A stretch of 64,000 nt of DNA from Aurantiochytrium sp. KH105. Lineage: Eukaryota > Sar > Bigyra > Thraustochytrida > Thraustochytriidae. Positions within the stretch are counted from its first letter, which is position 1; each line of letters begins with the position of its first letter. The notes beneath the pieces were generated by a model. The model was not told the origin of the DNA, did not search any database, and saw only the letters and a program-made list of their open reading frames with translations. Location of the stretch: NCBI GenBank assembly GCA_003116975.1, contig BGKB01000020.1, positions 682,001 through 746,000 of the forward strand, in the 5' to 3' direction. Position numbers and translations under genes: made by a program. Positions 35,245 through 63,214 of the stretch are shown one piece after another.

Positions 35245-35331
35245 NNNNNNNNNNNNNNNNNNNNNNNNNNNNNNNNNNNNNNNNNNNNNNNNNNNNNNNN
35301 NNNNNNNNNNNNNNNNNNNNNNNNNNNNNNN
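35245..35331. other. Assembly gap (87 N)
   Basis: 87 undetermined bases. The true size is unknown. The gap interrupts a minus-strand coding frame. Confidence 0.98.
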
Positions 35332-35927: not shown

Positions 35928-38900
35928 ATGGCAGAGGCCGCGGTCGTGACGAACGGGAACGACAGAGACGAGCCTGAGCACGAGGAGGAGGAGGAGGAGG
36001 AGGAGACGTGGCCCGTGGTGGTCCACCTGTTCGAGGCAAAGGTGCAAGCCGGGTTTGCAGGATACGACGAACCTCAAGTCGTCTTTCCTCTTGTTGCATC
36101 CCTGACCGAAGATGGCTTCGCTGTCGGCGATGCCGCAGCAGACGCAGCCGATCTCATCTGGCCCATTGAGCGAGGTATAGTCAATCACTGGGACGCGCTC
36201 GAGGCTGTCTTCGCTAAAATTTTCTCTGAGTTAATGATCAATCCAGAGAAACACAAGATTATTTTGGGCGAATTTGCCCCAGGGTCCAAGGAGCAACGCG
36301 AGCGTCTCATGACCATGCTCTTTTATTCTTTCGGGGTGCAAGGGATTGCATTCTTGCCAGTGTCGTCTCTCTTATCCTCGGGGCGAGCTATTGGTGTCTT
36401 TGTCGACGTATCCTGGGACGTTACACAGATTATTCCAATGTCTGAAAGTGTGCCCATTCCCGGAGCCACGATTCGTGCAGAACTTGGAATGCGGGATGTT
36501 GTTCAAGCATTTCTGAATAATCTTGAAGCGCAAGACGGTATGCAGACCTGCCGTAACCTTTACGAAGCGATGATCCTTTTCGAGAAACTCGCTGATCGTC
36601 ATGTTCTTCTTGGCGACCCCCTTTCCTGCAACGTGCTCCTCAAAGACTTGAGAGGGATCGGTGAAAATACTGTATTGAACGAGTCATTTACTCTCTCGAG
36701 CGACGACCTGCAGCAAGCTGCTGCAACGCTCCTTACAGGTACCTCGGCAGTCCCGGGGATTCTGGACCTCATTCTGGAAGCCATCTCCAAACTTCCACTG
36801 GATGTTCGCGAGCTCTTGACCTCCAGCATCGTGCTCTCCGGGAGCGGCACGTTAGTGTCAGGGTTTGCGCAAGAACTACAAAAGCGTCTATCCAAGGCTG
36901 CGCCAAGTACTTTGCGAGTGAAAACCCTTGCAAATCCTGATCGTCTCTACGCGTGGTGGGTATCTGGCTCGATTCTCGGATCTCTATCTGGCTTTGCCAA
37001 CGAGTGTGTATCAAAGAATGACTTTGTACATGATCCAGCCATGGCTGCGTCTGGGACTAGCGTTCAGTGGCATTCGTTCCTCCTCTCCAGGCAGTACGTT
37101 GGCCATAGAGCTGTGGAGAGGCGCTTCATGCTGAGGCTTAGCCATCCCATTGCTACGATGAATGATCGATTCGCAGAAATTAACGAGGTGCCCATGGTGG
37201 AGGAAACCGATGTTCGTCCTGATGTAGACGAGCTCCTCGAGTACCTTTTCCTCGTTGAACTTCAGGGTACTTCCATCAAGGGGCCGCTGGTTCTGAGCAC
37301 CGCGAATACGCATCCCGCTGCAATCTCGATGCTTATGCAGACTGCCTTCGCTCAGGGTTTCGACAAGGTAACAATGGTTGACGCCGCGAGCGCCGCTCTT
37401 GTCGCCTTAGGTCGGTCCACCGGACTCATTGTCGACGTCGGCCATCAATCAACTCGAATCACGCCCATCGTAGACTCTACTGTTCTCGAAGCAGCACGCA
37501 AAATTGTCCCGTGGGGCGGTAGAAACGCTTCTGCTACGCTCCAAAAACTGCTTCGTACTCTTGATCACGGCGAGAGAGGCAGAGATGCTGCAAATGAGAT
37601 CACTCTTGTCGACAACATCAAGGAAGAGGTTGGCTACGTACGCGCCGAAAGCAATGAGGAAGCTGATGTTGAAGTGATGTACGGGCTACCTGACAATCGC
37701 GGCATTGTGCTGCGTGAAGAACGATGGCGGATCTTTGAAGCTCTCTTTCAATCAAGCGAAGCGAGCGGATTCAATCTTGCCGAGGCAATCTGTGGGTCCA
37801 TAGAAATGGTCAACGATCTGGATCAGCGTCGAGAGCTTTATGCAAGCATTATTCTTGTTGGAGGAACTTCCATGTGCGAGGGTTTTTCGTCGCGACTCGA
37901 GACTCACTTGCGCGCATGTGTTAATCAGCAAGTGAACGTGATTGTTCCACCAGAACGAAGACATTTAGTCTGGCTCGGAGCCTCGATCCTCGCTGACTCC
38001 TCGAGTTCATCACAAAGGTTTCACGCTCTTTCGTACAGTTGTGACAAAACTATCTTTGACGCGAGTGGGCCAGGGGACTGTGGCATGAAGCATCAGGAAG
38101 TCGTGATCAAGAGCTCGCCAGCGGCGGCAGTCGATCTCGGCTCGCACATAATCAAAGTGGGCCAGGCAGGTGAAAAGACTCCACGTCGAGAAGTGGCTTC
38201 CGTCGTCGGTCGTGAACGGAGTCCGTACTCTGCAGGCTTCGAAGATCTGGTAAGATGGGCGACCGTATACCGCCAGGTAAGTGGTAGTGAGGCAAAGCAG
38301 TACCGTGCATTATACAATCTCGCATTGGACGGCGAGCTCTGTCCGCTCAACCGTAGTCGTCTCTTCCTAGTTGGGCAGAGCCAAGCGGGCAAATCGGCGC
38401 TGTCGCGATCACTCCTTGGTGAATCTTTTGGAGAGCTACCACAAACTCTCGGTGTGGATATAGCAACAGTCACTGCCACAATTTCAGAAAAAGCGACCAC
38501 ATGGGAAGAGAAGGATTTTGCACACAGTGAGTTTGCCATCCATTCAGCACGTACCGTTGCTGCGGCAGCTGCAGGAACACGGTCCAAACCTTCAGAGGGG
38601 TCAGCGTCTGCAGGACAAATGCGCAACCCCGAAAGCGCACGAGATCTTCAGGTGTGCTCCTCTTTCTTGCCGCTTGAAGCTATGGAAACGCTCCGTCGAC
38701 CCGAAAGTATGGCAGGAGTGCCCTCGTCGCGGAGACGTGGTGTGGCAGACCTGGTTCGATCGCTTGCACGAAACGTGTCGAGCCGGCTGCTCTCTACATT
38801 TCGTGGGGTGTTCCTCTTGGATCAAGACAGAATTCCTGTTGCTGATCCAGAGCCAATATCTCTTTCAGCAACGGAAGAAATCATGAGCAAGCTGGACGAT

Positions 38901-41135
38901 CAACTCGTGAAAAAGTTTGTACACGCCAAGGAAACGCTGGGACGCGATCTCACACTCACAATATCCTCGTGGGAATTATGTGGACAGAATACCTTTTCCC
39001 CATTACAGCACATCCTCTTGAGTCGCAGTGCAGTATATTTGGTTGTCTTTGACATGCGCCACGTGCTTAGAATCAAAGACCGTCCCCAGGCGCTCGAAAA
39101 TCTCCTCTACTGGCTTCAATGTATTGACGTTTCCACCTCGGGCGCTCGCGTGCTCCTCGTAGGGACGTATGGGGACCAAGTGCATACATCTAATGAGCTA
39201 GCACTCATCGACTCGGTTTTGCGCACGGAGCTGAGTCTGTCAGCCTATGCATCGACTCTTTTTCAAGAGTACGATCCAAAAGGTCTTTGCTTTTGTCCCG
39301 TAGACAACACACTGGAGGACGAAGATGCAGGAGTACGATGGCTGCGAGCTCTGGTGACGAGGATTAGCTTGCTGAAGCCGCATGTTGCGCACCCTGTTCC
39401 CCTCGCGTGGTCTAGATTTTTTGATTTGCTAATCGAGACAGGCGAAGAGTATCTAGCTCTCGAGGACGCCGAAGCGATTGCAGCTGAGGGCTGTAATATC
39501 TCGGACACGGAACAAGTGCAAGTCGCCCTGGCGCTATTCCACGAGCTCGGGATGCTCTTCTATTTTCGCGAGGTTGCTGGCCTTCGAGATTTCGTCGTAC
39601 TCAATCCTCAGTGGCTCATCCGCTGCTGTTCCATGGTGATACGTGACGTTCGTATGCACCCATATTGCTTGCCTGTACGTAAACGTCTTCAACATGCATG
39701 CCCGGAGGACCTTGTCCTTCTTCGCGTACAAGGCATTGCAACACGCAAGCTTCTCTACTCCTTGTGGGTGGACCAGGACCAAAATTCTAATGATCAAGAC
39801 TTTACGCGACGGCGATTTCTAATTGCAATGCTAAGGCACACGATGCTTGCCTGCTCGTTTGAGTCAGTCAACATGAAAACTCTTCATCCCTCCCAAACGT
39901 CCTCTTCGGACTGTCAACGAGCTTTTGTTCCTGCGGGTGGCGTCTTGCCCCAGCCAGATACGTTTCTAATTCCTTCGCTCCTATGTCCACAACGTCCGGG
40001 TGACAAGGACGTGGCGCAGCGGCTGCAACAAATTGAGGAGCTCATGCCTTCGACAGCGTCGGGACAGGCGTTAGTCTTCTACTTGACTGTCGAAGGGACT
40101 TTTCCTTGGCCCAAAGGTCTCTTTGAGCGTCTGGTCTGTCTGGCTGTGGAACACTCGCATGCTGCGGCCTTCTTGGGCGCCTCGCGGGCACCTTTGTCAG
40201 GACCAGGTGAAGTGCTCTTTTGGCTGGGCGAAGCCAGTTGCCGCATGACAGAGGAGGTCGAGGAAGGGCGCATTCGCTGCATTGTGGACGAGTCACGTGC
40301 GCAACTTGCATTTGTGGATGAACTCCTGTCAATGCTGGCTCGCCTCAATGAGGAAGTCATGCACAATCAAGCAACCTTTGCTGCGCAGCTTCAAGTAATT
40401 GTGGATCGCCTCGGCACGGTTCAGGTGGACTACGATGAAGCCAAATATACTTGGTCCAAGAATCGCAAATACGCGCGCGGGTCCTGTCATCAGAAAGTCC
40501 CGCGAGCCTCTTTGGCAAGATGGATGAGTGCGCAAGACTTAGGCGATGTCTTTGATGCTTGGCGGGACGAGCTCCCAGGGTGTTTTGGTCTCTCGCGAGC
40601 ACAGCACCAGAGCGATGTTGTCGGACATATAAGGACTGCAGGTAGCGTACCGCTGCCTTCCAAGGCGGACTCACACGTTTTCATCAGCTATCGGCAGGCC
40701 AATGCAGGCGAAACCTGCACATATATCAGAGATATCCTTGAAGGTCTCGGACTCGAGGTTTGTCTGCGCTCCGATACCGAGAATGTACCCAGCATAGGCG
40801 GTGTGGTCAAAAATGTTCGCAATAGCATCGTACTTTTACTTTTGCTGTCTGACGGGGTTCTTCTCGAGTCATCAGTGCAAGAGGAAGTTCGCACCGCAAT
40901 GGATCTTCGCATTCCAGTCATCGTGGCTCACGACGGGGACTCAGGCTACGAGTCATTTTTGGAGATATACAATGCGAAAAGGCAGTCGCCTGAGGACTTG
41001 CGCGTACTCTTTGACGAGATCGAGTCTCTTCCTCTTCGACGTCGTCTTTTCGAGCGTCGTGCGATGGAGAGTGAGCTCTTTCGCCGCGTGCTCGTTGAAG
41101 TGAAGCGCCGCGTTTCCAGCGACGGTACCTTTTGA
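35928..41135 (+). CDS. Actin-actin-Roc-COR-TIR fusion protein
   Basis: 1,735 residues, one exon, from ATG 35928. Order: acidic N-tail (17-28); actin-related domain 1 (about 29-368: VQAGFAGYDEPQ, PIERGIVNHWDA, IVLSGSGTLVSGFAQEL); actin-related domain 2 (about 397-712: GLIVDVGHQSTRITPI, IKEEVGYVRAE, ILVGGTSMCEGFSSRLE, DASGPG end); an actin phosphate-1-like fragment (about 733-765: VDLGSHIIKVGQAG, VVGRERSP); a Roc GTPase (about 806-1110) with P-loop GQSQAGKS (816-823), WELCGQ (1015-1020, Glu where Roc usually has Asp) and VGTYGD (1078-1083); a COR region (about 1130-1420: ALFHELGMLFYF, LNPQWLIRCC); and a TIR domain (1582-1720: HVFISYR, QEEVRTAM with the NADase-position Glu1652/1653). Domain 1 lacks the usual DxGS and DxGDG phosphate loops. 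I infer a cytosolic signalling or cell-death protein whose GTPase switch gates TIR, with actin-like domains as scaffold or sensor. Confidence 0.85.
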   Translation: MAEAAVVTNGNDRDEPEHEEEEEEEETWPVVVHLFEAKVQAGFAGYDEPQVVFPLVASLTEDGFAVGDAAADAADLIWPIERGIVNHWDALEAVFAKIFSELMINPEKHKIILGEFAPGSKEQRERLMTMLFYSFGVQGIAFLPVSSLLSSGRAIGVFVDVSWDVTQIIPMSESVPIPGATIRAELGMRDVVQAFLNNLEAQDGMQTCRNLYEAMILFEKLADRHVLLGDPLSCNVLLKDLRGIGENTVLNESFTLSSDDLQQAAATLLTGTSAVPGILDLILEAISKLPLDVRELLTSSIVLSGSGTLVSGFAQELQKRLSKAAPSTLRVKTLANPDRLYAWWVSGSILGSLSGFANECVSKNDFVHDPAMAASGTSVQWHSFLLSRQYVGHRAVERRFMLRLSHPIATMNDRFAEINEVPMVEETDVRPDVDELLEYLFLVELQGTSIKGPLVLSTANTHPAAISMLMQTAFAQGFDKVTMVDAASAALVALGRSTGLIVDVGHQSTRITPIVDSTVLEAARKIVPWGGRNASATLQKLLRTLDHGERGRDAANEITLVDNIKEEVGYVRAESNEEADVEVMYGLPDNRGIVLREERWRIFEALFQSSEASGFNLAEAICGSIEMVNDLDQRRELYASIILVGGTSMCEGFSSRLETHLRACVNQQVNVIVPPERRHLVWLGASILADSSSSSQRFHALSYSCDKTIFDASGPGDCGMKHQEVVIKSSPAAAVDLGSHIIKVGQAGEKTPRREVASVVGRERSPYSAGFEDLVRWATVYRQVSGSEAKQYRALYNLALDGELCPLNRSRLFLVGQSQAGKSALSRSLLGESFGELPQTLGVDIATVTATISEKATTWEEKDFAHSEFAIHSARTVAAAAAGTRSKPSEGSASAGQMRNPESARDLQVCSSFLPLEAMETLRRPESMAGVPSSRRRGVADLVRSLARNVSSRLLSTFRGVFLLDQDRIPVADPEPISLSATEEIMSKLDDQLVKKFVHAKETLGRDLTLTISSWELCGQNTFSPLQHILLSRSAVYLVVFDMRHVLRIKDRPQALENLLYWLQCIDVSTSGARVLLVGTYGDQVHTSNELALIDSVLRTELSLSAYASTLFQEYDPKGLCFCPVDNTLEDEDAGVRWLRALVTRISLLKPHVAHPVPLAWSRFFDLLIETGEEYLALEDAEAIAAEGCNISDTEQVQVALALFHELGMLFYFREVAGLRDFVVLNPQWLIRCCSMVIRDVRMHPYCLPVRKRLQHACPEDLVLLRVQGIATRKLLYSLWVDQDQNSNDQDFTRRRFLIAMLRHTMLACSFESVNMKTLHPSQTSSSDCQRAFVPAGGVLPQPDTFLIPSLLCPQRPGDKDVAQRLQQIEELMPSTASGQALVFYLTVEGTFPWPKGLFERLVCLAVEHSHAAAFLGASRAPLSGPGEVLFWLGEASCRMTEEVEEGRIRCIVDESRAQLAFVDELLSMLARLNEEVMHNQATFAAQLQVIVDRLGTVQVDYDEAKYTWSKNRKYARGSCHQKVPRASLARWMSAQDLGDVFDAWRDELPGCFGLSRAQHQSDVVGHIRTAGSVPLPSKADSHVFISYRQANAGETCTYIRDILEGLGLEVCLRSDTENVPSIGGVVKNVRNSIVLLLLLSDGVLLESSVQEEVRTAMDLRIPVIVAHDGDSGYESFLEIYNAKRQSPEDLRVLFDEIESLPLRRRLFERRAMESELFRRVLVEVKRRVSSDGTF

Positions 41136-43062: not shown

Positions 43063-46000
43063 ATGAGCGAGCCCCAAGAAGGCCTCTCCTTTGCAAATGT
43101 AAAAAGCTATGTTCGAGACGCCATCGGTCCGAACGCGCGAGCAAAGAGCCCCAACGAAGACTATGTAGGCGGCCTGAACCTCACCCAGCTTCGCGAGCAG
43201 CTTACAGCAGCTGCTGCAGATCGAAAAGCCGATGTCTCAGCCACAGATTCCTTGCTGGATCTGGTCAAACAGAAACGCGAGCGGGAAAAACTGGAAGAGC
43301 TCCGTCAGGTCAAAATTCGACATCAAGAGCTTCGTGCGCGCAAACGCCAAGAATCAACAGAGATCTCCAAAGTCATGATGGAACTTGAAAAACGTAAGCA
43401 GCAGGAACTTGAGCTTCGTCTGCAAAAGGAACGTATTCAGCAGGGGCTGGAGCGCGTGGATCGCACCCATCTTGGACAGCTGGAGGCAGAAAAGCGCAAA
43501 GAGCTAGAGTCTCTAACCAAGGAACGCCAATCCCTCCAAGACAAGGAAGAGGCCATCTTGCGGCAAGTCGAGGAGCTCGAGCAAAAGATAATTGAGCAAG
43601 AAGAGCTCAACGCAAAACGCAAGCAAGAGGTTGAAGACGCACTCGTGCGCAGGAAAGGCTCGCGTCTCGAGCACAAAAATGCCGAGCTTTTACGCCTTGC
43701 GGCTGCCCACGGACAACGTACGTCTACACTCCTCGTAGAGCGAAACGAACTTGAAAAGGAGCGGCAGCGCCTTCAAGACCAACTCGAGGAGCTTGCAGGT
43801 GACAAGGGGGCAGCGACGTTGCGTCAAGAAGGTGAAGAGCTTGATGCCTTTGTAGATGCTGTGCAAAATCGAATCTCGGAGCAGCAGGAGCGTGTGGCCC
43901 TGATGCGCATCGAGCACGAACGAGCACAAAAGGACTGGGTCGTGTCAAAAATTGCTGACGAGAGCGACACAAAGAGGCTTCGACCCGAAGGCCTCGACAA
44001 TTCGCTTCCATTTACGGTGCAAGCAGAATCATTTCTGAATGAGTGGCTCAACGAAGATCCGAACCGTGCCCCGGCACTCGGCCAGGCGCGCGCCACGCTT
44101 GATGATGCCGTCGCTGACAACCCCGTGCACGGTCATCATCGGGCTTCTGATCTCAAAGATCAATCCTCACCTGCCGCTTTGCCACACCCAGAGGTGCACT
44201 TTGATTCTAATGTAAATGTGGAAAGCGGAGAAGCCTCACTGGCGCACAAAGCGCGGCACACAAAGAGACATCGAGGCCGTCAGACCAAGACGTGGAACGA
44301 GTCACGGAGCAAATCAGCCCTCAAGAGCACATCGGAGACCTCGGAAGAGCTGACACCCGAGGCGCGCCGTCAACTCGAAGAAGAGGTGGATGTTCTCAAA
44401 GAGGAATATGCGACTTTGGGCATGGCTAGCCCCAGCCTTTGGCATCAGATTCAACTACTCGAGAAGCAGCTTGGATATCGCCCATCAAAACGGCCGCCAA
44501 TTCGTATTCAAGTGCCAGCGCAACCAGCTGCTCCTTGGGCAGGCCCACACACGTACCCGTCTCCAACTTCGCAGGCGGGGCTCGCCAGTCCTATGGTCGA
44601 ATTTCAGATCGAAAAGCAGCAGCGCATGCTCGATCGCCAGGCCAAAACCTTGCGCAAGATTGAACTAAAGCAGGAGAAAGCCAAAATCAAAGCTGACCTC
44701 GAAGAGCGCACGCGTGGCCGTGGATACGGGAGACGAAGAGATCCTTCTTCAAGACGCCACCGAAAAAGCTCGCGTCGCCATCGCCGCCACCGGTCTGGCG
44801 CCTCACAGTCATTGAGCACGTCGTCCGACTCCTCCTCCTCGTCGTCGTCACAGATCTCATCGGCTTCGTCTTCTGACCAAGACTCATCGTCCCTGTCGAG
44901 TACCTCACAGCATCGGTCGCGACGTCATCATCCACGACGAAGAGAACGTCGTCCTCGTCGTGATCGAGGCGTTCCGAATTGGCACGATAACGGGCAGTCT
45001 GTTTTAGATGAGGTCACCTTGGGTCCGGGAAGCGGCTTTCAGCAACAGCAACAGCAGCAAGTTGCTGGCGAAATGGTGCAGCTCGAACAGCAGCAGCGAG
45101 TCTTCACGCGCACCATGGAGTCGCTGACGCGCAAACTTCAGGCCCTCGGCGGGGCCGATCCCCTGCCTGGTGCAATGTTTGGGACCACAGCTTCGACAGG
45201 ACAACACGGTTGCGATGGTGAAAAGAATAAACTTCTTGAAGAGCTCAGTACACTTGATATGATCCCGCGTGATTCGGAATTATACGATATTCAAGTCGAG
45301 CATCTCAAGATGATTACCCGTATGCGGATTGAAATGGAGGAGCTTCAGCAGCAACAGCGGGTGAGTGCCATGAAGGGGAATCTTGAGCGCGAGCAGCGAG
45401 AACTCGAAAAGAAAGCGGAATTTGAAGAGCGCAAGCTGGACCAGGAACGCGAGCTCGAACTCGCCAAACTGCGCAGAGCACTCGCGCGAGAAAATGTGGA
45501 CATGAATTGGAATGGACACAGCGGACCAAGTGGCAAGTCCTACGACGCGCAAGCTGGATTTGCTTGTTACTTTGATTATGCAACAGGAATTCCCAAGCGT
45601 TTCCACATGGTGAGAGTTGTCTATTGTATATATGAAGACGAGACCGTGCGGTCGAGCGTCAAGGCTCTCTCAGCATGTGAGACCGAAGCTGACACGGCGA
45701 CACGAAGCACAGCTGTTTTTGCAACGCGGAAGAAGTTTGCGCGGATTCCTGCTGTTGAGACCTTGCGCGTGGTCATGGAACTTCAGTGCGTGCAGGACGG
45801 TCCGCAAGGGCGAGCGTACCAGAGCATTGGTTGGACCGTGCTCAGTCTTTTCCAGAATGGACCACCCGGAAGCGCAAGTTTGTGTCTAAACGAGGGCCCA
45901 CATCAGCTCCGCTTCCATCGTCCCCCCTTCAAGGTGACAGATATTGCAGGAGCCATTCAGCCCGGTGCCGATCCTGATGATGGCGCCGCGGGTGAACCAA

Positions 46001-48849
46001 TGCATTTATTTTTACGCATGGTTCACATGGTGGACATAGACGTCTCTATGGATTTCGTGATTGACCCGTGCGTGACGCAGCACCTCTACAAGCGCTGGCC
46101 ACCACGAAAAGAGACGAAAAAGGGCCCAAGTTCGCGGCGCAAGGAAAAGTCGACCTCGAGACGCAAAGGGAACAAGTCGAGGCACTCTGCAAAACATGGC
46201 GACGACGGTGCCTCGGAACTGGGCTCCGTTGCGGACCGGTCTATCGTTTCAGCAGATTCGGCTGGCGCACAGACGTTGACAAGTTCTGCTTCGCGGCGTA
46301 AAAAGTCCACATCCCTGAAGTTGAAAAAGAAGCGTCGCGTGAATCTGCAGCTTGACCACGTCGCGTTCGCTCGCGAGAGCCCCGCGCATATGATTTTTGT
46401 TCGTGTTATTGCTCTTGGTGACGCATCGTGTGTCAACGCAGCTATCCAAGCAGAAGCGGAGGCACTCAAAGCTTTTCCCAGCACGAGTGCAGTCATTGAC
46501 TACTCTGGACTTCCAGGAAATGCACGCGTCTGGGAATCTGAAGCTCGCGACATTCGTGTCAGCACGGGCCAAGTCTCGTGGACGCGAGCATGCACAAATC
46601 CGACATTTTTTGATTCGATCAACATTGACGCCCAAGGGATATTACTTGTCAAGATTTTCGAGCGCCTGCCTGAAGGACTGGACAATTCGAGCGAAAATGC
46701 GGAGGCCAACGTGGCAGATGGCAGCGGAGCAAGCGCTTCGATGGTTAACAAAAGCCTCGATGGCGCGAGCGTGAGACTTGTAGGCTGGGCCGTGAAACCT
46801 TTGCTCGATGAGGAAGGGCGCGTTGAGAGCGGATCAGCTCCAATATCTTTGGACCTGCTTCAACCTCCCGTTGTTGTCCCGGGCGACGATGACCGCGCCG
46901 AATCTCTTGATGCGCGCATCATTTTTTCCATGACAAAAATACCAAGTAGCAGCAGCAGCGTTGTGAGCGCTGCTTCATCCTCTGCAAGTCGACGAAATGG
47001 ACGACGACGGCGGAGGTCGGTGGCGAGTATTGCCTCGATTGCTGAGGAAGACGAAGACGATATGATGAGCAGCGAGGAAGAAGATGACTTTGACGACGAT
47101 GAAGCTGACGCAAGTGGAAGGAAGCGGCACGATGGCTCGAGCGTTGGCGATTCCAGGCGCAAGCGGTCTCCGCACGCCAAAGAAGACCCAGAGCCCGCTG
47201 TGGATGACCATGCGCCTTTTGTGGAGAACAAAGTCAAGCTTTCGCGCAATCCGCCTCTCTTTGAGCGGGGTGAGGACGGATTTGACGTCTATATTGATGG
47301 GGCTCGTTGTCTTCCAGACTATGCGACGATTTCTGCGGTGCACGTGAAGCTGCTGGCTCCAAATTTTGAGCTTATTGGCGAGGAGCACCGAGCCCATGCA
47401 TCTTTGAGTGACAGTGCTTACAACCCGAAATATAGGTTGCGAGCGGAGTTTCGGGGCGAAGCCGTTGCAAATCCGGCGGGAACTCTGCTCTTTCGCATCG
47501 ACACGGTCGACCGTTTCACCAAGGCAACCAAGGCCATTGGGTACACGTGTCTAAATCCCTTTTGCATGCCGAATGGCACTGATGAGCAGGCATCCAAGTC
47601 AACGACGCAGGAGTACGCCTTGCTGCGTGGAAGCTTTCAGTTGCCCTTGTATCAGGAGCGACCTGATACCACGCAGACATTTTCCTCCAAGCTGTTCGAG
47701 AGCTCGCATCGCGTTCCCTGCGCAACCTTGCTCGTGCGCATCCTGCCAGCGAAAAAGAGCAAGGACAATGTGCACATTTTGCGTCTCGATGAATTTCCGC
47801 AAGACGAATGGGAGCGGAGAGGTCTTGTAGTTCCAGCGCCACGCTACGGCCCGCGTGCTGGCTACGACACGAGCCGTTGCGAGCCGCTATCCTGTGAGCA
47901 AAAATTGTACGCGGTGCTGGCGGACCGCGAAGAGGTTCTGGTTGGAGAAATGGTAACCCTTGCGCGACGACCGGGGGTCGCCGAAGACAAGCACGTCGAT
48001 GTGATGGAGGACAAAGAATTGCAAGATTGGGTCGTCAAAAGGCTGAGCCAGCCTCAGGGCATGATGCCGCTCGACCATGCAGCCCAGTATCAGCCAGAGA
48101 CAGGGTTTGCGGTTGCCATCGAGGGCCTTACGGGTTTGCGCTCTCGTGATGTCGGCAAGAACAAGCTGCACAAGGTAATCTTTTCCTTGAACCCGCCTGG
48201 CGCGTACTACGGCGATCCCCGACTCACTGACGTCGTAGCGTTTACAACGACGCATGACTTTGATGCAGCAGTCGGGGCGCCGCGTTTTCTTGATGAGCTG
48301 CACGTATTTCGAGACGTCCCTTATGACCCCAAGATGGTGCTGATTGTAGACGTGCGAACGGTTCGGACAGATCGGATGGATCAAGAGGTTTTTGCGTGGG
48401 CCATTGTTCCCATCTTTAGTCGCCACGGGCCGTACACGTGCAATGGGCGTCTTCACGCGCCTCTATTCGAAGGTGGTGTGCAAGTCGATGTGCTCGCTGA
48501 CTTGCAGAGCTCCGATCTCGATCCAGAGACCTTTATCTTGAACGAGATGAATAAGGGAAAACTCGCGCGATTGAAGCTTTCTAAAGCTCAGGCTTCGGTT
48601 GTCGTGCGCTTGGTGGACAGTCTTGTGCGTGACTGCATGCAATTCGATTCGACGCGAGAATGTGGCATGCCGGAAAAACTCGTTTCGAAGTTTGTGACGC
48701 AACTCGCGGCGAGTGAAGGTCCCGTGAAGAAGGGCAGCACGCTTGGGGCAGTTATTCCCAAGACACATCGGCAGCAGCCCGAGGCTTTTGAGCGCGTTAT
48801 TAACGAAGAGTTTGCCAAGCTCACCGGGATTAGTAATTACACATTTTAA
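43063..48849 (+). CDS. Giant coiled-coil protein with C2-like C-terminal half (CCDC17-like)
   Basis: 1,928 residues, single exon from ATG 43063. Residues 60-290 are an uninterrupted coiled coil rich in E/K/R/Q; 290-530 is mixed; 530-640 is a basic/Ser low-complexity tract (RRHRKSSRRHRRHRSG, poly-Ser); 640-820 is a second coiled coil with Gln clusters. From 825 come beta-rich segments that read like divergent C2 domains: GFACYFDYATGIPKRFHMVR (about 830), a second around 1090-1260 (LDHVAFARES, ILLVKIFERLPEG), and a third around 1400-1520 (GFDVYIDGARCLPDYATISA, TLLFRIDTVDRF). A final domain spans about 1680-1830. The first of these plus the coiled coil resembles vertebrate CCDC17. I infer a cytoskeletal or ciliary scaffold; no catalytic motif is visible and the family name is tentative. 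Confidence 0.62.
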   Translation: MSEPQEGLSFANVKSYVRDAIGPNARAKSPNEDYVGGLNLTQLREQLTAAAADRKADVSATDSLLDLVKQKREREKLEELRQVKIRHQELRARKRQESTEISKVMMELEKRKQQELELRLQKERIQQGLERVDRTHLGQLEAEKRKELESLTKERQSLQDKEEAILRQVEELEQKIIEQEELNAKRKQEVEDALVRRKGSRLEHKNAELLRLAAAHGQRTSTLLVERNELEKERQRLQDQLEELAGDKGAATLRQEGEELDAFVDAVQNRISEQQERVALMRIEHERAQKDWVVSKIADESDTKRLRPEGLDNSLPFTVQAESFLNEWLNEDPNRAPALGQARATLDDAVADNPVHGHHRASDLKDQSSPAALPHPEVHFDSNVNVESGEASLAHKARHTKRHRGRQTKTWNESRSKSALKSTSETSEELTPEARRQLEEEVDVLKEEYATLGMASPSLWHQIQLLEKQLGYRPSKRPPIRIQVPAQPAAPWAGPHTYPSPTSQAGLASPMVEFQIEKQQRMLDRQAKTLRKIELKQEKAKIKADLEERTRGRGYGRRRDPSSRRHRKSSRRHRRHRSGASQSLSTSSDSSSSSSSQISSASSSDQDSSSLSSTSQHRSRRHHPRRRERRPRRDRGVPNWHDNGQSVLDEVTLGPGSGFQQQQQQQVAGEMVQLEQQQRVFTRTMESLTRKLQALGGADPLPGAMFGTTASTGQHGCDGEKNKLLEELSTLDMIPRDSELYDIQVEHLKMITRMRIEMEELQQQQRVSAMKGNLEREQRELEKKAEFEERKLDQERELELAKLRRALARENVDMNWNGHSGPSGKSYDAQAGFACYFDYATGIPKRFHMVRVVYCIYEDETVRSSVKALSACETEADTATRSTAVFATRKKFARIPAVETLRVVMELQCVQDGPQGRAYQSIGWTVLSLFQNGPPGSASLCLNEGPHQLRFHRPPFKVTDIAGAIQPGADPDDGAAGEPMHLFLRMVHMVDIDVSMDFVIDPCVTQHLYKRWPPRKETKKGPSSRRKEKSTSRRKGNKSRHSAKHGDDGASELGSVADRSIVSADSAGAQTLTSSASRRKKSTSLKLKKKRRVNLQLDHVAFARESPAHMIFVRVIALGDASCVNAAIQAEAEALKAFPSTSAVIDYSGLPGNARVWESEARDIRVSTGQVSWTRACTNPTFFDSINIDAQGILLVKIFERLPEGLDNSSENAEANVADGSGASASMVNKSLDGASVRLVGWAVKPLLDEEGRVESGSAPISLDLLQPPVVVPGDDDRAESLDARIIFSMTKIPSSSSSVVSAASSSASRRNGRRRRRSVASIASIAEEDEDDMMSSEEEDDFDDDEADASGRKRHDGSSVGDSRRKRSPHAKEDPEPAVDDHAPFVENKVKLSRNPPLFERGEDGFDVYIDGARCLPDYATISAVHVKLLAPNFELIGEEHRAHASLSDSAYNPKYRLRAEFRGEAVANPAGTLLFRIDTVDRFTKATKAIGYTCLNPFCMPNGTDEQASKSTTQEYALLRGSFQLPLYQERPDTTQTFSSKLFESSHRVPCATLLVRILPAKKSKDNVHILRLDEFPQDEWERRGLVVPAPRYGPRAGYDTSRCEPLSCEQKLYAVLADREEVLVGEMVTLARRPGVAEDKHVDVMEDKELQDWVVKRLSQPQGMMPLDHAAQYQPETGFAVAIEGLTGLRSRDVGKNKLHKVIFSLNPPGAYYGDPRLTDVVAFTTTHDFDAAVGAPRFLDELHVFRDVPYDPKMVLIVDVRTVRTDRMDQEVFAWAIVPIFSRHGPYTCNGRLHAPLFEGGVQVDVLADLQSSDLDPETFILNEMNKGKLARLKLSKAQASVVVRLVDSLVRDCMQFDSTRECGMPEKLVSKFVTQLAASEGPVKKGSTLGAVIPKTHRQQPEAFERVINEEFAKLTGISNYTF

Positions 48850-57697: not shown

Positions 57698-60600
57698 ATG
57701 GCGAGGCGGCGCGCGGAGGAGGAGGAGGCCGAGGGCGGCGAGGCCGAGGCCGAGAGCGGCGGCGGCGCGATGAGCAGGAGCGGCGAGGCGGCCGGCGAGG
57801 ATGATGGAGATGAAACCTCGAGGCGCCGCCGCGAGCGCGAGCGCGAGCGCGAGCGCGAGCCTGAGCGCGAAGCGAGGCGGCGGCGGGGGCTGCGACGGGA
57901 CGCGGAGGAGGGCGAGGCCCACGCGCAGGTCCAGGTCGAAGACCTCGACGAGATCGCGAGCCCGCGCAAACATCGCGAGCGCGAAGCGGACGCGGAGTCC
58001 GGCAAGCGCGAACCCCCTGGCCAGGTCGAAGACGACAACGACGAGGAGCAGCGCAGCGACACGGAGCACCCTGAGCCAGACGCAAAAGAAGCGTCTGCAG
58101 CCGCCGACGCCTCTTCGCTTTCAAAAGGGAATGGCGACAATCGTGCGCAAGAAACATGGCAGGATGGCGACAGACAAATGGACCCGAATGGGCAGAACTC
58201 CACGCGCAGGCACAGGCAGTGGACGCCGCGCCGCGGACGGAGGAGACCCGAAGAGGTGGTTGTGCCTGCGACAGACGTGGCAAACCCAATGGACAACTAC
58301 GTCGTGCTCGATATTATTGGCGAGGGGTCTTTCGGTAAGGTGCACAAGGGGAGGAGGAGATTCACAGGTCACATTCTTGCGCTCAAATTCATCAGCAAAC
58401 ACGGAAAGTCCGAAGCAGAGCTCGCCAAGTTACGAAGCGAAATTGAAATCCTTCGACCACTCGACCACGCGAACATTGTGCTCTTACTCGACGCGTTTGA
58501 AACGCGACGAGAGTTTTGCGTCGTCACAGAGTTTGCCCAAGGTGATCTCTTTCAGCTTCTCGAGGATGACCGTCGTGTGGCCGAGCCGCAGGTACAAAAC
58601 ATTGCCAAACAGCTCGTCCAAGCTCTTTATTATCTCCACTCGCACCGCATCATCCATCGAGACATGAAACCACAAAATATTCTTATTAGCAGCGAAGGCC
58701 GCGTCAAACTGTGCGACTTTGGCTTTGCGCGTGCGCTCTCTGCAAAGACCATCATGGTCACTTCCATCAAAGGAACGCCTCTTTATATGGCCCCGGAGCT
58801 CGTTCGCGAGCAGCCGTACAATCATACGGCCGACCTATGGTCGCTGGGTGTGATTCTCTACGAGCTCTTTGTGGGCCAACCTCCCTTTTTCACCAACAAC
58901 ATTTACACGCTCATCAATCTCATTGTCAAAAATGAGGTGCGCTACCCTTCGGAAATGTCGCAGCTCTTCAAAAGCTTTTTAGCGGGCTTGCTTACCAAGG
59001 ACAGTCGGCACCGGCTGCAGTGGCCCAAACTCTTTGACCACCCATTCGTGCGCGAGACCCCAGAAGAGGTCCAGGCCCGAGAAGTCGTGGAAGCGAATCA
59101 TCTCAATAACCCTCGCTACCGTCTCGAGCAGTTTCTTGGCACACGACAGCCTACCGTGCCACCAACACCAACCATGACCTCGCCTGTGCGCATGAGCGAG
59201 CCACGTAGCCCGCGTTGGCCAAATCCCTCGAGCGCCGAACGGCAGCGCCAGCGCCAGCTTCAGCAGCGGCTCGACGTCTCCGATCAGCATGATCTCCTAT
59301 CCATCGCCTCATCTCGAGACGAGGCGCCCTCGCCGCGACTTCGCAGGCGTAATTCTATTGCAAATGTCGACCAAGACTCTCGCACAGCACCCGAACGCCC
59401 CCCGGTTGATGGGGAACTCATTCCTTATGAGCGCGGCGTCCCGAGCCCGGCCGCTCGTCTCCCCAAACGTACGCAACGTGGCCATCGTCGCTCCTCGAGC
59501 TCCAATGCTGCGCTTCTGCGCCCAACAGAAGAGCATCCTCACGACGTGGGTTCATCAAATGGTGGCACAGACCGTTCTAACCAAGCCTCAGATGTGCGTC
59601 GCCGTGCAATTGCTTCGTCGTCTTCTTCCTCTTCGCCAACAGCATCATCATCATCATTGCCATCATCACCATCATCATCACCAGGTGGCGCTGGGATCCA
59701 GGAAAGCGAAGACGATGACGCATCAAGACACCCAAGGAAAGATGCCGCGCAACCCACACCTGGAAGCTTTGGAGCAAAGACGACAAATGTAGAGCCTGGC
59801 AAAGATGAGCACGACTCAAATGGTACCAGTAGCAATACCTCAGATCCCCAACACGATCTGGCTCGACTTGCGGCTCGAGCCGCGGGCACTGGAGAGTCCT
59901 CGTTGGCGATGCGGCACGATGTTCGCGTGTTGGAGCAAATTTGCGCCACGCTCGCAAACGAGCGCGCTGGTGCCGAAATGGTACGCAATGCGCTAAAAAC
60001 GATCATCCTGCTCGCAGCCAAGCCTGTGGAGCGCCTTGGCGCCTCGGCGCGAGGCGATGTTCTGCTCGATAGCGACCTCTTCGCAGTGCTGGTGCGCTTT
60101 TGCAAACAGGAACTTCGACGACGCTCGCGTCGCACAGCACCACTCCTTGCCGATGCTCTCCATGCACTTCGATGCCTTTTGCGCGAGCACATGCGTGAGC
60201 AAGAGCCTCTACGCGTGGACAAACGTATCGGCGAACTCTGCGTCCGTGCCCTCTCTCCTGCCGTTGAGGCATTTCAGACTGTGCAGGGCGCCCAGACAGA
60301 TGCCATCAAGTGTGTGCTTCTCATTTGTAGCTTTTGCACCGTGTATTCGCCTCGTCTATGGATCAGTGTACACAAAGAGGTCTCATCAGAGGACTTTTGC
60401 AATGCGCTCGTTGTCGTCCTGCAGCACAGCAATGTGAAGCGACGCGGGTCTGTCGATCAGCGCAACAAGGAGGCGCGCCTTGCACTTCGTGCCATGGCAC
60501 TCCTCGTGCATCCGGCGGGGAGCAATGGCGGCGAGGTTGCTTTGGAGCATTTTCCCTTGTTCGCGCCCTTTGACGAACGCGACGAGTTCGAGGTTGATCC

Positions 60601-63214
60601 TTCCGACTGGTTCGGGGGGATCTTTCAGACGGATCGACCAGCCAAACTTGAGGATCGTGCACGTCAGGCCGACGCTATTCTCGCTTCGGGAGAGCGTTTG
60701 CGCCAGCGAATCGTGACAGCTATCGAGTCTGCCGGCGCTGTTTTCGACGTTCTCGTCGCCGCAGCCGTTTCCTTTGATGGCGGCAACACCTCACCGGCAG
60801 CCTTGAGTGGCGTCGCAGGTGCTTTGCATGCCAAGGATGCCTTGCGCGTGCTCCTGCACGCCTGTTCTTTCTCGGTTGATGTGGCGTATCGACTCGCAAA
60901 AGACGCCCAGGCCTTGCAGGGCATCATGACGTTGGCTCGCCAGTCAAAGGAGGAAGGCCAGCTCGCATGCGTGCTACTCTCTGTATTGAGCCGCCGTCGC
61001 CTACTCACAGTGGCCATGAGCTCGGCGAGTATCGAGCTCTGCATCAACGTTCTCTCGGACACACGCACCCCGAACGAGGCGCTCCCTGCCAAGGCGTCGC
61101 TCCTCGCTGCAGTGCTCAATCGCTTTTCTCTCGAATTCAAGGCCTTTGAAGGCTCGCTGGTCTCTGAAACCTCGCAGCGCTCACGCGCAGGAAGTCTCTC
61201 CAAGCTGCATCACGTCACGACAAAGCTACTAGAGCATCTGATTCGGTCGCAAGATCTGCGTCGAGGGATTCATGCGCTCATGGCCGCTTGCGAAGGTTCG
61301 GCGCACGCGCGGGTTGTGCACCCAATGCAGGGTGTTGGCTTTGTATTCCAAGAGTTTAGCGCGCACGACCTGCCATCCACCCTGCTCCTTGCCTTTCTCA
61401 AGCTCGCGCGCCGCTCTGCGCTTCCAGATTACGCGGCGCGTGTCTCGCAGAGTATCCTCGAGTCGGGGCTCTGGCATCATCTCATGGAGCTTGTAGTTCC
61501 GCAAACAAGCGTGGCCGATCGCGAGTTTGGCACGGCAACGACGGGCCGTGCTGCTGCCAATCTTTCCACGCGAGGGGTTCTCTCTGTCTTGCAACTCACT
61601 ACCGAGCTCGTCAGTGCCGATCCGCCTTCCAATGCGAGCGTTCTTTTTGGCAGCGATGGGGCGCTCTATTGGGTCGTGGACCTTTTGCACAGTACTCATT
61701 TGCAGCGTCTCTTAGTGTGGCCGGCTACTCTTGGAGGTGGGGCTCACGGGATTGTTGCAGTCTTAGATCATGTCTTTGACGTACTTGCGCTAGTCTTTGC
61801 GTGTGAACTTCAGGCCCCGGAACAGCGCCAGTTGCAAATGGTGCTTTCTAACTGTGGATTCATGCGCAAGTCGATGCGGGCGCTGGCACTCGTGGAGCGC
61901 CTCGGGCTCGCAGCCGATCGTCCTGAATTCTCTTTGGCTCCACTGAAGCTGCACGCAATTCTCGTATCCGAGTCAGAGCTCTTTGCTCGCCAATTTGTCG
62001 AATTTGGCGGACTGCAGCAAGTCAAGGAGCTTGGCTTGCTTGACCTGGCGCGTTACGTACGCATGTATAGGAACTCTACAACCGCTTCAACTCCGGCACT
62101 GAAAGATACCAACGAGCAAGAGCATGACAAAGATGAGAGCTCGTTGGCTCTGCAAACTTCAAATCCACGCGGGCCGCTCTCGCCGCGCAAGGGCGAACCC
62201 GGATCAGTTATGCCCGAGTCCAAAACATCTGCGAGCATTGACTCCAGCAATGGGACGGGTGTGATTTTGCAGGTGCGCATGGACATGACAATTCACGCAC
62301 TCTTGCTTCTGAATCAGCTCGCGAGCCAGGGCGACGCGTACCACCAAGCCATCCTCGCGGCAGACTATAGCGCGGACCTACACTACCTTCTTGGATATCC
62401 GAATGCCATTGTGCGCTCAGAAACATGCAGACTCTTTGGGAAACTTTGCAAGAACTCGTCTCTCTTTTACCCAGCACTTGCGCGGAGCTTTTCGTCTGGT
62501 CCGACATTGGGCAAGAACAACCCCTCGGGGTCCAAGGCGGAAAAGGGAGTCAACAATGATGTTGACCAAACGGAGTCATTGGCAGCATCTTCGTCGTCCT
62601 TTTCACCGCCAGCAGCAAGTTCTCCGCCTCAAGCAACGACTTCTTCTACTTCTTCTGCTTCTACTTCTTCTTCGACACCCGCGACTACCCTTTTAGGGCG
62701 ACTCGTGGCCTGTTGCCAAGACGAGGACCCAGAAACACGGAAGCTTGCGTGCTTTGCCGTGGGCAATGCTGCGTATCACTCGGACTATTTGTACAAGCTT
62801 TTGGCGCCGGCCGTTCCTCTTTTGGTTCATCTTCTGAGCGACCGAGAAAAGAAAACACGTGCGAACGCTGCGGGAGCGCTCGGAAATCTCGTGCGTAATT
62901 CAAGTGTTTTGAGCGCTGCACTTTTGGACGCTGACGCCCATGTTAATCTTTTATGGCTGGTTGCAAGAGACCCCGCCATTCAGCCCCAGCGTATGGCGCT
63001 CTTTTCCATGGGCAATCTTTTGGCCCACAAGGACTGTCGCGAGGCGCTTCTGGCAGCGTGTGCAAAAGACGCTGTCCCTCTGGAAGAGTGGCTGGAAGAT
63101 CTCGAAGAGTCGGCCTCAGACAAAGTTCTGCGCTCATACGCCTCGCGAGCACTCGCCAAGCTCCGTGCTGCACCTCGTTCACCACCAACGCGACCTGCTT
63201 CCATCTCTGCATGA
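57698..63214 (+). CDS. STK36: Fused/STK36-type kinase with ARM-repeat C-terminus
   Basis: 1,838 residues from ATG 57698. Residues 1-197 are an R/E-rich disordered extension that STK36 proteins normally lack; M198 (58289, [18 protein letters not shown]) lies where the family usually starts. Kinase about 200-455: [12 protein letters not shown]-type Lys in [27 protein letters not shown] and [12 protein letters not shown], very close to animal Fused/STK36. A disordered Ser-rich linker (470-725) follows, then a long helical-repeat region (about 740-1838) with ARM-like units near the end ([34 protein letters not shown]). In most eukaryotes STK36 is needed for motile cilia (central pair), and in animals it is tied to Hedgehog signalling. 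All kinase residues are intact. Confidence 0.93.

Follow-up and report, generated by a model that had tools for sequence, protein, structure and literature searches.

What would a protist protein gain by carrying actin domains in front of a GTPase switch? The question is raised by an open reading frame (ORF) of the thraustochytrid Aurantiochytrium sp. KH105, located at 35928-41135 (+) of the window, by which we mean the whole 64,000-nucleotide stretch analysed here (contig BGKB01000020.1 of assembly GCA_003116975.1, positions 682,001 to 746,000, forward strand). The original prediction, made from the letters alone, held that one uninterrupted frame of 1,735 codons joins two actin-related domains, a Roc-COR GTPase and a TIR domain. 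The translation bears out the frame, which runs without interruption over 1,735 residues to its stop codon. The chance of an open frame this long, estimated from its own base composition, is about 3 x 10^-33, and its ATG has an A at -3 and a G at +4. The eight motifs named earlier are all present in the translation, namely PIERGIVNHWDA (aa 79-90), VGGTSMCEGF (aa 644-653), GQSQAGKS (aa 816-823), WELCGQ (aa 1015-1020), VGTYGD (aa 1078-1083), LNPQWLI (aa 1225-1231), HVFISYR (aa 1583-1589) and QEEV (aa 1651-1654). With no stop codon separating the actin part from the Roc part, we rejected a reading as two genes. As far as the sequence can tell, it is thus confirmed that a single frame joins two actins, a Roc domain, a COR-A domain and a C-terminal TIR-like domain, in this order.

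Our answer, which we hold with confidence slightly above even, is that the frame encodes a Roco-TIR signalling protein in which a pair of actin folds, a pseudo-actin and a permuted actin opened in its DNase-I-binding loop (D-loop), replaces leucine-rich repeats (LRRs) as the N-terminal sensor. Pfam profiles, run on separate segments of the 1,735-residue protein, recognise both actins with PF00022 (cut-off 27 bits): actin 1 (segment aa 1-400) scores 145.2 bits (E 2.8e-42) and actin 2 (segment aa 381-730) 132.5 bits (E 2e-38), the best stretch of the latter spanning profile positions 75-389 of 410. Both modules score far better as actin than as bacterial actin-like families, and among solved structures the best 60 of 179 matches of actin 1 and the best 60 of 158 matches of actin 2 are all actins. 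Identity to yeast actin is 30% for actin 1 and 33% for the permuted copy, and the two window domains share 69 of 318 residues. In an actin tree both sit on very long, unresolved branches (2.2-2.4 changes per column), so the tree gives no answer on whether either copy arose from its neighbour. Actin 1 has a shortened D-loop, and actin 2 has none. Compared with canonical actin, both domains are above the family cut-off, and they differ from it by the permutation of the second copy, the shortened or missing D-loop, the loss of the ATP site in actin 1 and the fusion to a signalling protein.

The order of their parts sets the two copies apart. Actin 1 (aa 25-368, 36000-37031, delimited by PF00022 and a residue map) has the ordinary N-to-C order, which actin 2 does not follow in the profile scan. 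After the linker that joins the two actins (aa 369-389, 37032-37094, from profile boundaries), the residue map equates actin residue 53 with aa 390 and residue 375 with aa 726, and continues with residue 1 at aa 727 and residue 39 at aa 764. Part 1 of the second actin (aa 390-726, 37095-38105; Pfam, mapping and fold match) corresponds to actin 53-375 and part 2 (aa 727-764, 38106-38219) to actin 1-39, with phosphate loop 1 as VDLGS, including D736. This third actin piece scores 23.1 bits with PF00022 (E 3.3e-5, segment aa 715-810, profile positions 4-39), below the cut-off of 27, and 16.4 bits with our own profile, as against 8.6 for the best of 5,000 shuffles, those without a reportable match being unlisted. 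The two pieces are complementary: no actin residue occurs twice, and only D-loop residues 40-52 are left out. The old C-terminus and N-terminus are joined without a spacer, which is the pattern of head-to-tail duplication. The original prediction was right in counting two actin domains and overlooked the third piece, the permutation and the contrasting ATP sites.

A permutation scan was performed by rotating a profile made from 16 actins, namely one yeast actin and 15 of 23 actin loci (L008, L011, L013 and L019-L023 were excluded from the profiles as broken or partial). Over aa 370-815 the top score, 140.5-140.8 bits, was obtained with the profile cut at residues 40-50, that is, in the D-loop; the uncut profile gave 115.4 bits for its best single match and 129.0 for both matches summed. 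About 14 bits of the gain come from the second piece and about 12 from the fit in one continuous permuted model. For actin 1 the uncut profile was best (179.7 bits). From its sequence, the second actin thus appears to have undergone circular permutation, with the break in the D-loop. At the level of the predicted protein, its pieces are shown to stand in permuted order without overlap; their assembly into one fold is supported, not proven.

Do both copies still look able to bind nucleotide? Over 25 positions that we take to form the ATP site of actin, identity to yeast actin is 14/25 in the permuted copy and 4/25 in actin 1 (Fisher P 0.004); set against the 33% background of the permuted copy, its 14/25 has a P of 0.016, uncorrected for the six residue sets tried. 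The permuted copy retains D11, G13, S14, K18, D154, G156, G182, R183, K213 and E214, as well as G301, G302, T303 and M305. The changes in actin 1 include D11H, G13F, S14E, G156S, D157W and K213A. Since phosphate loop 1 (D11, G13, S14, K18) is kept on the moved piece and lost in the adjoining, complete actin 1, the moved piece is hard to explain as dead. Conservation separates the two copies at the ATP site only. In actin, Q137 and H161 serve hydrolysis; both are replaced in the permuted copy, H161 lying outside the 25-residue set, which suggests ATP binding without turnover. Judged by its residues, ATP binding with poor hydrolysis is the probable behaviour of the permuted copy.

Behind the actin pair, the chain continues with the parts of a Roco protein. 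The Roc GTPase domain (aa 806-1157, approximate bounds; 38343-39398) reaches 42.5 bits with PF08477 (segment aa 801-1159, cut-off 27), and the COR-A domain directly after it (aa 1158-1313, 39399-39866) 53.9 bits with PF16095 (segment aa 1155-1401, cut-off 35.3). Their matches in the PDB are bacterial Roco proteins and LRRK1/2, and hhalign, run against 13 aligned Roc-COR proteins of bacteria, gives 97.9% (E 3.6e-13) over aa 1012-1358. The G1 and G4 motifs of Roc are retained, the former as the P-loop GQSQAGKS at 38373-38396 (motif and PDB match) and the latter as VGTYGD, with D1083, at 39159-39176 (motif and hhalign); G3 is WELCGQ at 38970-38987, on the same evidence as G4. The G1-G3 spacing is 199 residues here versus 46-52 in the 13 bacterial Rocos, from which we place an insertion of about 150 residues between these motifs (38475-38942, approximate bounds). 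When the whole protein is searched, eight Pfam families match at E up to 10, and NB-ARC is not one of them.

With a profile made from 16 TIR domains of bacteria, the C-terminal TIR-like domain (aa 1581-1735, 40668-41132) scores 19.4 bits, and none of 500 shuffles exceeds 6.2. These 16 domains come from 57 loci (L051-L107) and were taken where the central ORF has an [FL]ISY-type motif; two of them (L100 and L101) are bacterial Roco TIRs by their coordinates. The domain is not detectably close to bacterial Roco TIRs (hhalign E 0.03, not significant), a single-sequence search against the 285 ORFs of the TIR loci gave nothing under E 2.2, and solved structures offered no useful match for the segment. 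E1653 (40884-40886) aligns with the catalytic glutamate of NAD-cleaving TIRs, and a glutamate at this position has a catalytic role. The earlier placing of the NADase glutamate in QEEV therefore stands, the precise residue being the second E. We take the TIR domain as real but divergent.

How far is this architecture from known proteins? LRR-Roc-COR-TIR proteins are common among bacteria. COR-A is present in 14 of 98 cyanobacterial genomes, with Roco ORFs at 27 loci, of which 13 were readable by a simple motif script and six of these 13 have a TIR-type motif after COR. In one genome (G031), PF13676 exceeds its cut-off three times, and each of these places agrees with a Roco ORF in contig and ORF length. 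The six cyanobacterial LRR-Roc-COR-TIR proteins (L030, L040, L042, L046, L048 and L049) share with the window protein the succession of Roc, COR and, at the C-terminus, a TIR-type motif; they carry 7-12 LRR-like motifs before G1, whereas the window protein has none, and their G1-G3 spacing is 47-50 residues versus 199. Among eukaryotes, a TPR-ROCO-TIR protein has been reported from Chondrus crispus and ROCO proteins from Schizochytrium aggregatum, in a survey that obtained 11,268 ROCO proteins and whose section on them names no actin domain (PMC11378527). The Chondrus protein resembles ours as a eukaryotic ROCO with TIR and differs in its TPR sensor. In the same section, ROCO proteins of brown algae are proposed as candidate immune receptors; they too are eukaryotic ROCOs, their sensor being TPR or LRR, and no actin domain is named there (PMC11378527).

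No published description of a permuted actin was found in the open-access literature, and among the matches listed no open-access paper on Roco, TIR or multidomain proteins with actin describes this order, in agreement with the original prediction that no such protein had been described. The parts of PMC6337361 and PMC7159879 that were covered hold nothing on actin-Roco fusions. Relatives of the same architecture were absent from IMG/VR viral contigs, where 49 stretches matched the peptide pattern and none encodes a relative, and from phage and plasmid records. As the collections comprise prokaryotes, phages, plasmids and viral contigs, this absence says little about eukaryotes. With LRR-Roc-COR-TIR already known from bacteria and TPR-ROCO-TIR described in a red alga, what is new is the actin head and the permuted order of its second actin.

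It is tempting to go one step further, and we do so tentatively, with confidence a little short of even: the permuted actin may have taken over ATP binding from its dead partner, and its nucleotide state may drive the GTPase switch of a Roco-TIR immune or cell-death receptor. In the favoured reading itself, actin 1 would be a pseudo-actin with a ruined ATP site, acting as a scaffold or binding surface. The permuted actin would rebuild a large part of an ATP site from loop 1 (aa 736-743), loop 2 (aa 503-508) and the adenine side (aa 565-566 and 645-649). Through the permutation, actin 2 would be connected to actin 1 and to Roc at one place, its D-loop. The D-loop lies at the tip of the mobile subdomain 2 of actin; with both connections there, a movement of subdomain 2 would be the natural signal to Roc, which might directly feel ligand binding, nucleotide loss or chemical damage in this way. 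Roc would then shift its GTP state and COR, in turn, the oligomeric state, and the TIR domains brought together might cleave NAD or otherwise signal. Candidate inputs might be a pathogen factor, with the actins as decoy, an actin-binding protein or the nucleotide level. What we infer here are ATP binding, the coupling between actin and Roc, the cleavage of NAD as output, an involvement in stress or immunity and the sensed input. The idea of a Roc-COR switch with a TIR output, part of the original prediction, is backed by the profiles and by the bacterial LRR-Roc-COR-TIR proteins, its NADase output belonging to the inferred part. Actin-related proteins of chromatin remodellers and of Arp2/3 are non-polymerising and pair actin folds as nucleotide-bound scaffolds; unlike the window protein, they are separate chains of ordinary order, without Roc-COR-TIR.

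Several observations weigh against a working permuted actin at the head of a Roco-TIR protein. The optimum of the permutation scan is broad, cuts at residues 60-80 still giving 138.8-139.8 bits, and the exact break therefore rests on the residue mapping. In the permuted copy 11 of the 25 ATP-site residues are altered (N12, G15, M16, Q137, S155, D157, G158, V159, R210, F306 and K336, the last to R). Conservation as a whole gives the permuted copy no advantage: of 61 nearly invariant actin positions, 34 are kept in actin 1 and 28 in the permuted copy, and over residues 5-40 consensus matches number 15/35 in the moved piece and 13/32 in actin 1. A stringent AlphaFold2 model, whose 11 alignment rows all lie over the large part and none over the moved piece, left aa 727-764 disordered, with a predicted local distance difference test (pLDDT) of 25-28; overall its pLDDT was 55.4 and its predicted TM-score (pTM) 0.55. 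In favour of one fold, a guided model, with a shorter query and 28 rows (14 for the large part, the other 14 being N-terminal actin fragments aligned to the moved piece), reached a pLDDT of 72.4 and a pTM of 0.73 and has four strands within aa 733-763, ten-residue blocks across aa 735-764 being at pLDDT 78, 88 and 80. In its alignment (A5), fragments, one of them N-terminal from L011, had been trimmed of residues before D11 and of tails of the C-terminal part until they lay on the moved piece; two other alignments (A3 and A4), with N-terminal fragments split or C-terminal tails displaced, were set aside. Because N-terminal fragments were aligned to the moved piece, the guided model is not independent; it shows that the chain could adopt a permuted fold, not that it does. 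The matches that Foldseek listed for this model are actins (best E 1.4e-19, TM-score 0.58 on the query), and with Foldseek taken as a sequential aligner they say nothing on the permutation. An attempt to deepen the alignment from viral actins gained none (4 and 12 stretches matched).

The list of observations against extends to the rest of the chain. Roc G3 has an E where the bacterial Rocos compared have a D. COR-B was not detected: the region expected for it (aa 1314-1580, 39867-40667) has no family match, Pfam giving nothing over aa 1325-1581 (39900-40670), and hhalign is non-significant for COR-B. Of the predicted domains, actin, Roc and COR-A exceed their Pfam cut-offs, and TIR_2 (PF13676) lies just below its own, with 25.2 bits (E 2.4e-5, segment aa 1565-1735, cut-off 28) and 20.5 bits on the whole protein, yet the domain scores above the 500 shuffles. 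The TIR glutamate is preceded by S-V instead of the usual W-C. As no relative of the same architecture was found, conservation offers no test.

A challenge to the permutation is that aa 727-764 could be the dead remnant of a third tandem actin, behind an N-terminally truncated actin 2, with no working permuted fold. Permutations usually arise by tandem duplication, and such a remnant would be expected as an intermediate. The piece stayed unplaced in the stringent model, the separate matches reach 129.0 bits without assuming one fold, and, as the 15/35 and 13/32 indicate, the overall conservation of the piece does not exceed that of the actin 1 N-terminus. A remnant would not, however, readily account for pieces that do not overlap and omit the D-loop residues alone, for the retention of precisely those loop 1 residues that complete actin 1 has lost, or for the strands into which the guided model folds the piece, and we regard it as unlikely. 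A somewhat less unlikely idea, though still a doubtful one, is a special case of the reading that we favour: the actin pair would be an integrated decoy, a bait for pathogen factors that bind or modify actin, and the receptor would fire when the bait is taken. The candidate immune role of brown-algal ROCOs (PMC11378527) fits this idea, as does the decoy principle proposed for plant NLRs in the part of PMC4246468 covered; NLRs with integrated decoys resemble the window protein in combining an immune-type switch, TIR and a possible target-mimic domain, and differ in that their switch is NB-ARC. The great divergence of both actins, visible in their branch lengths, agrees with it as well, but with actin surfaces so poorly conserved, binding by factors adapted to actin is not obvious.

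The actin modules might instead copolymerise with actin filaments or cap them, the protein sensing the cytoskeleton directly, as the original prediction had in part suggested. Their far better match to actin than to bacterial actin-like families and the actins among their best 60 structure matches speak for this, and the join between the C-terminus of actin 1 and the D-loop of actin 2 resembles the longitudinal filament contact in its geometry. Over residue lists that we take to represent the filament contacts, pointed-end subdomain 4 contacts are kept at 1/13 in actin 1 and 4/17 in actin 2, barbed-end subdomain 3 contacts at 4/15 and 3/14, and lateral contacts at 4/16 and 3/18, all at or below background identity. 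The mapped subdomain 2 positions of actin 2 (3/7 kept) are an exception to this low conservation, and the subdomain 1/3 cleft is kept at 10/24 in actin 1, above its 30% background, and at 8/24 in actin 2. With the filament contacts mostly unconserved and the D-loop reduced, copolymerisation is unlikely on sequence grounds, and the idea as a whole seems improbable to us; small actin-binding proteins that bind in the subdomain 1/3 cleft are possible partners. Marginally less probable again is a gene with two products, in which splicing from a donor at 38277 to an acceptor ending at 38370 would shift the frame and end an actin-only protein at aa 813, the unspliced transcript giving the full protein. 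A perfect donor consensus, CAGGTAAGT (CAG/GTAAGT), lies at 38274-38282 (+), between actin and Roc; a scan of the window showed no second one on either strand (0.19 expected per strand). A pyrimidine tract and an AG give the 94 bases after the donor an intron-like look, just before the P-loop. The frame is open throughout, however, and since residues 801-814 of the would-be intron match the lead-in to a Roco P-loop (4wnr; a weak match of 17.9 bits, independent E 0.007), we consider the full frame the likelier product. As for an assembly artefact or a decaying pseudogene, an N run of 87 (an assembly gap) at 35245-35331, 0.6 kb upstream and outside the frame, which leaves part of the upstream region unread, and the degeneracy of some motifs might raise this suspicion. 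We hold it to be very improbable in view of an open frame of 5.2 kb with family matches over most of its length and a codon-position composition that is roughly constant along it, the outlying bins being aa 1-87 (GC1 0.77, GC3 0.67) and aa 871-957 in the Roc insertion (GC2 0.63).

As for the surroundings, a 1,928-codon open frame just downstream (43063-48849, +) matches no Pfam family at E 0.001 or below. Further on, a 1,838-codon frame (57698-63214, +) combines a protein kinase at its N-terminus with HEAT/Arm repeats at its C-terminus and resembles Fused/STK36. Scans of the window for Rfam families and tRNAs were negative. Among the actin loci collected for comparison, two homologues on contigs of bacterial metagenome-assembled genomes (MAGs) have starts that look by eye like signal peptides (L012, 929-2119, and L014, 860-2101); L014 starts with a twin-arginine-like motif, and phosphate loop 1 of L012 is degenerate. 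From these starts, they are possibly exported bacterial actins. Three further MAG actins (L015, L016 and L018) are compact, with 328-329 residues and without most of subdomain 2, including the D-loop, and they cluster together in the actin tree with a support of 100/100.

Few eukaryotic proteins are as constrained as actin. If the permutation is true, the actin fold can bear a break in the D-loop, the first 39 residues having moved to the end of the chain, and the window protein would be a ready-made test of how far the ATP site, subdomain 2 and the filament contacts depend on chain order. If the favoured reading of a Roco-TIR switch with an actin sensor is true, it would bring a new kind of input to the family that includes LRRK2, and actin integrity would be linked to NAD-based signalling in a protist.

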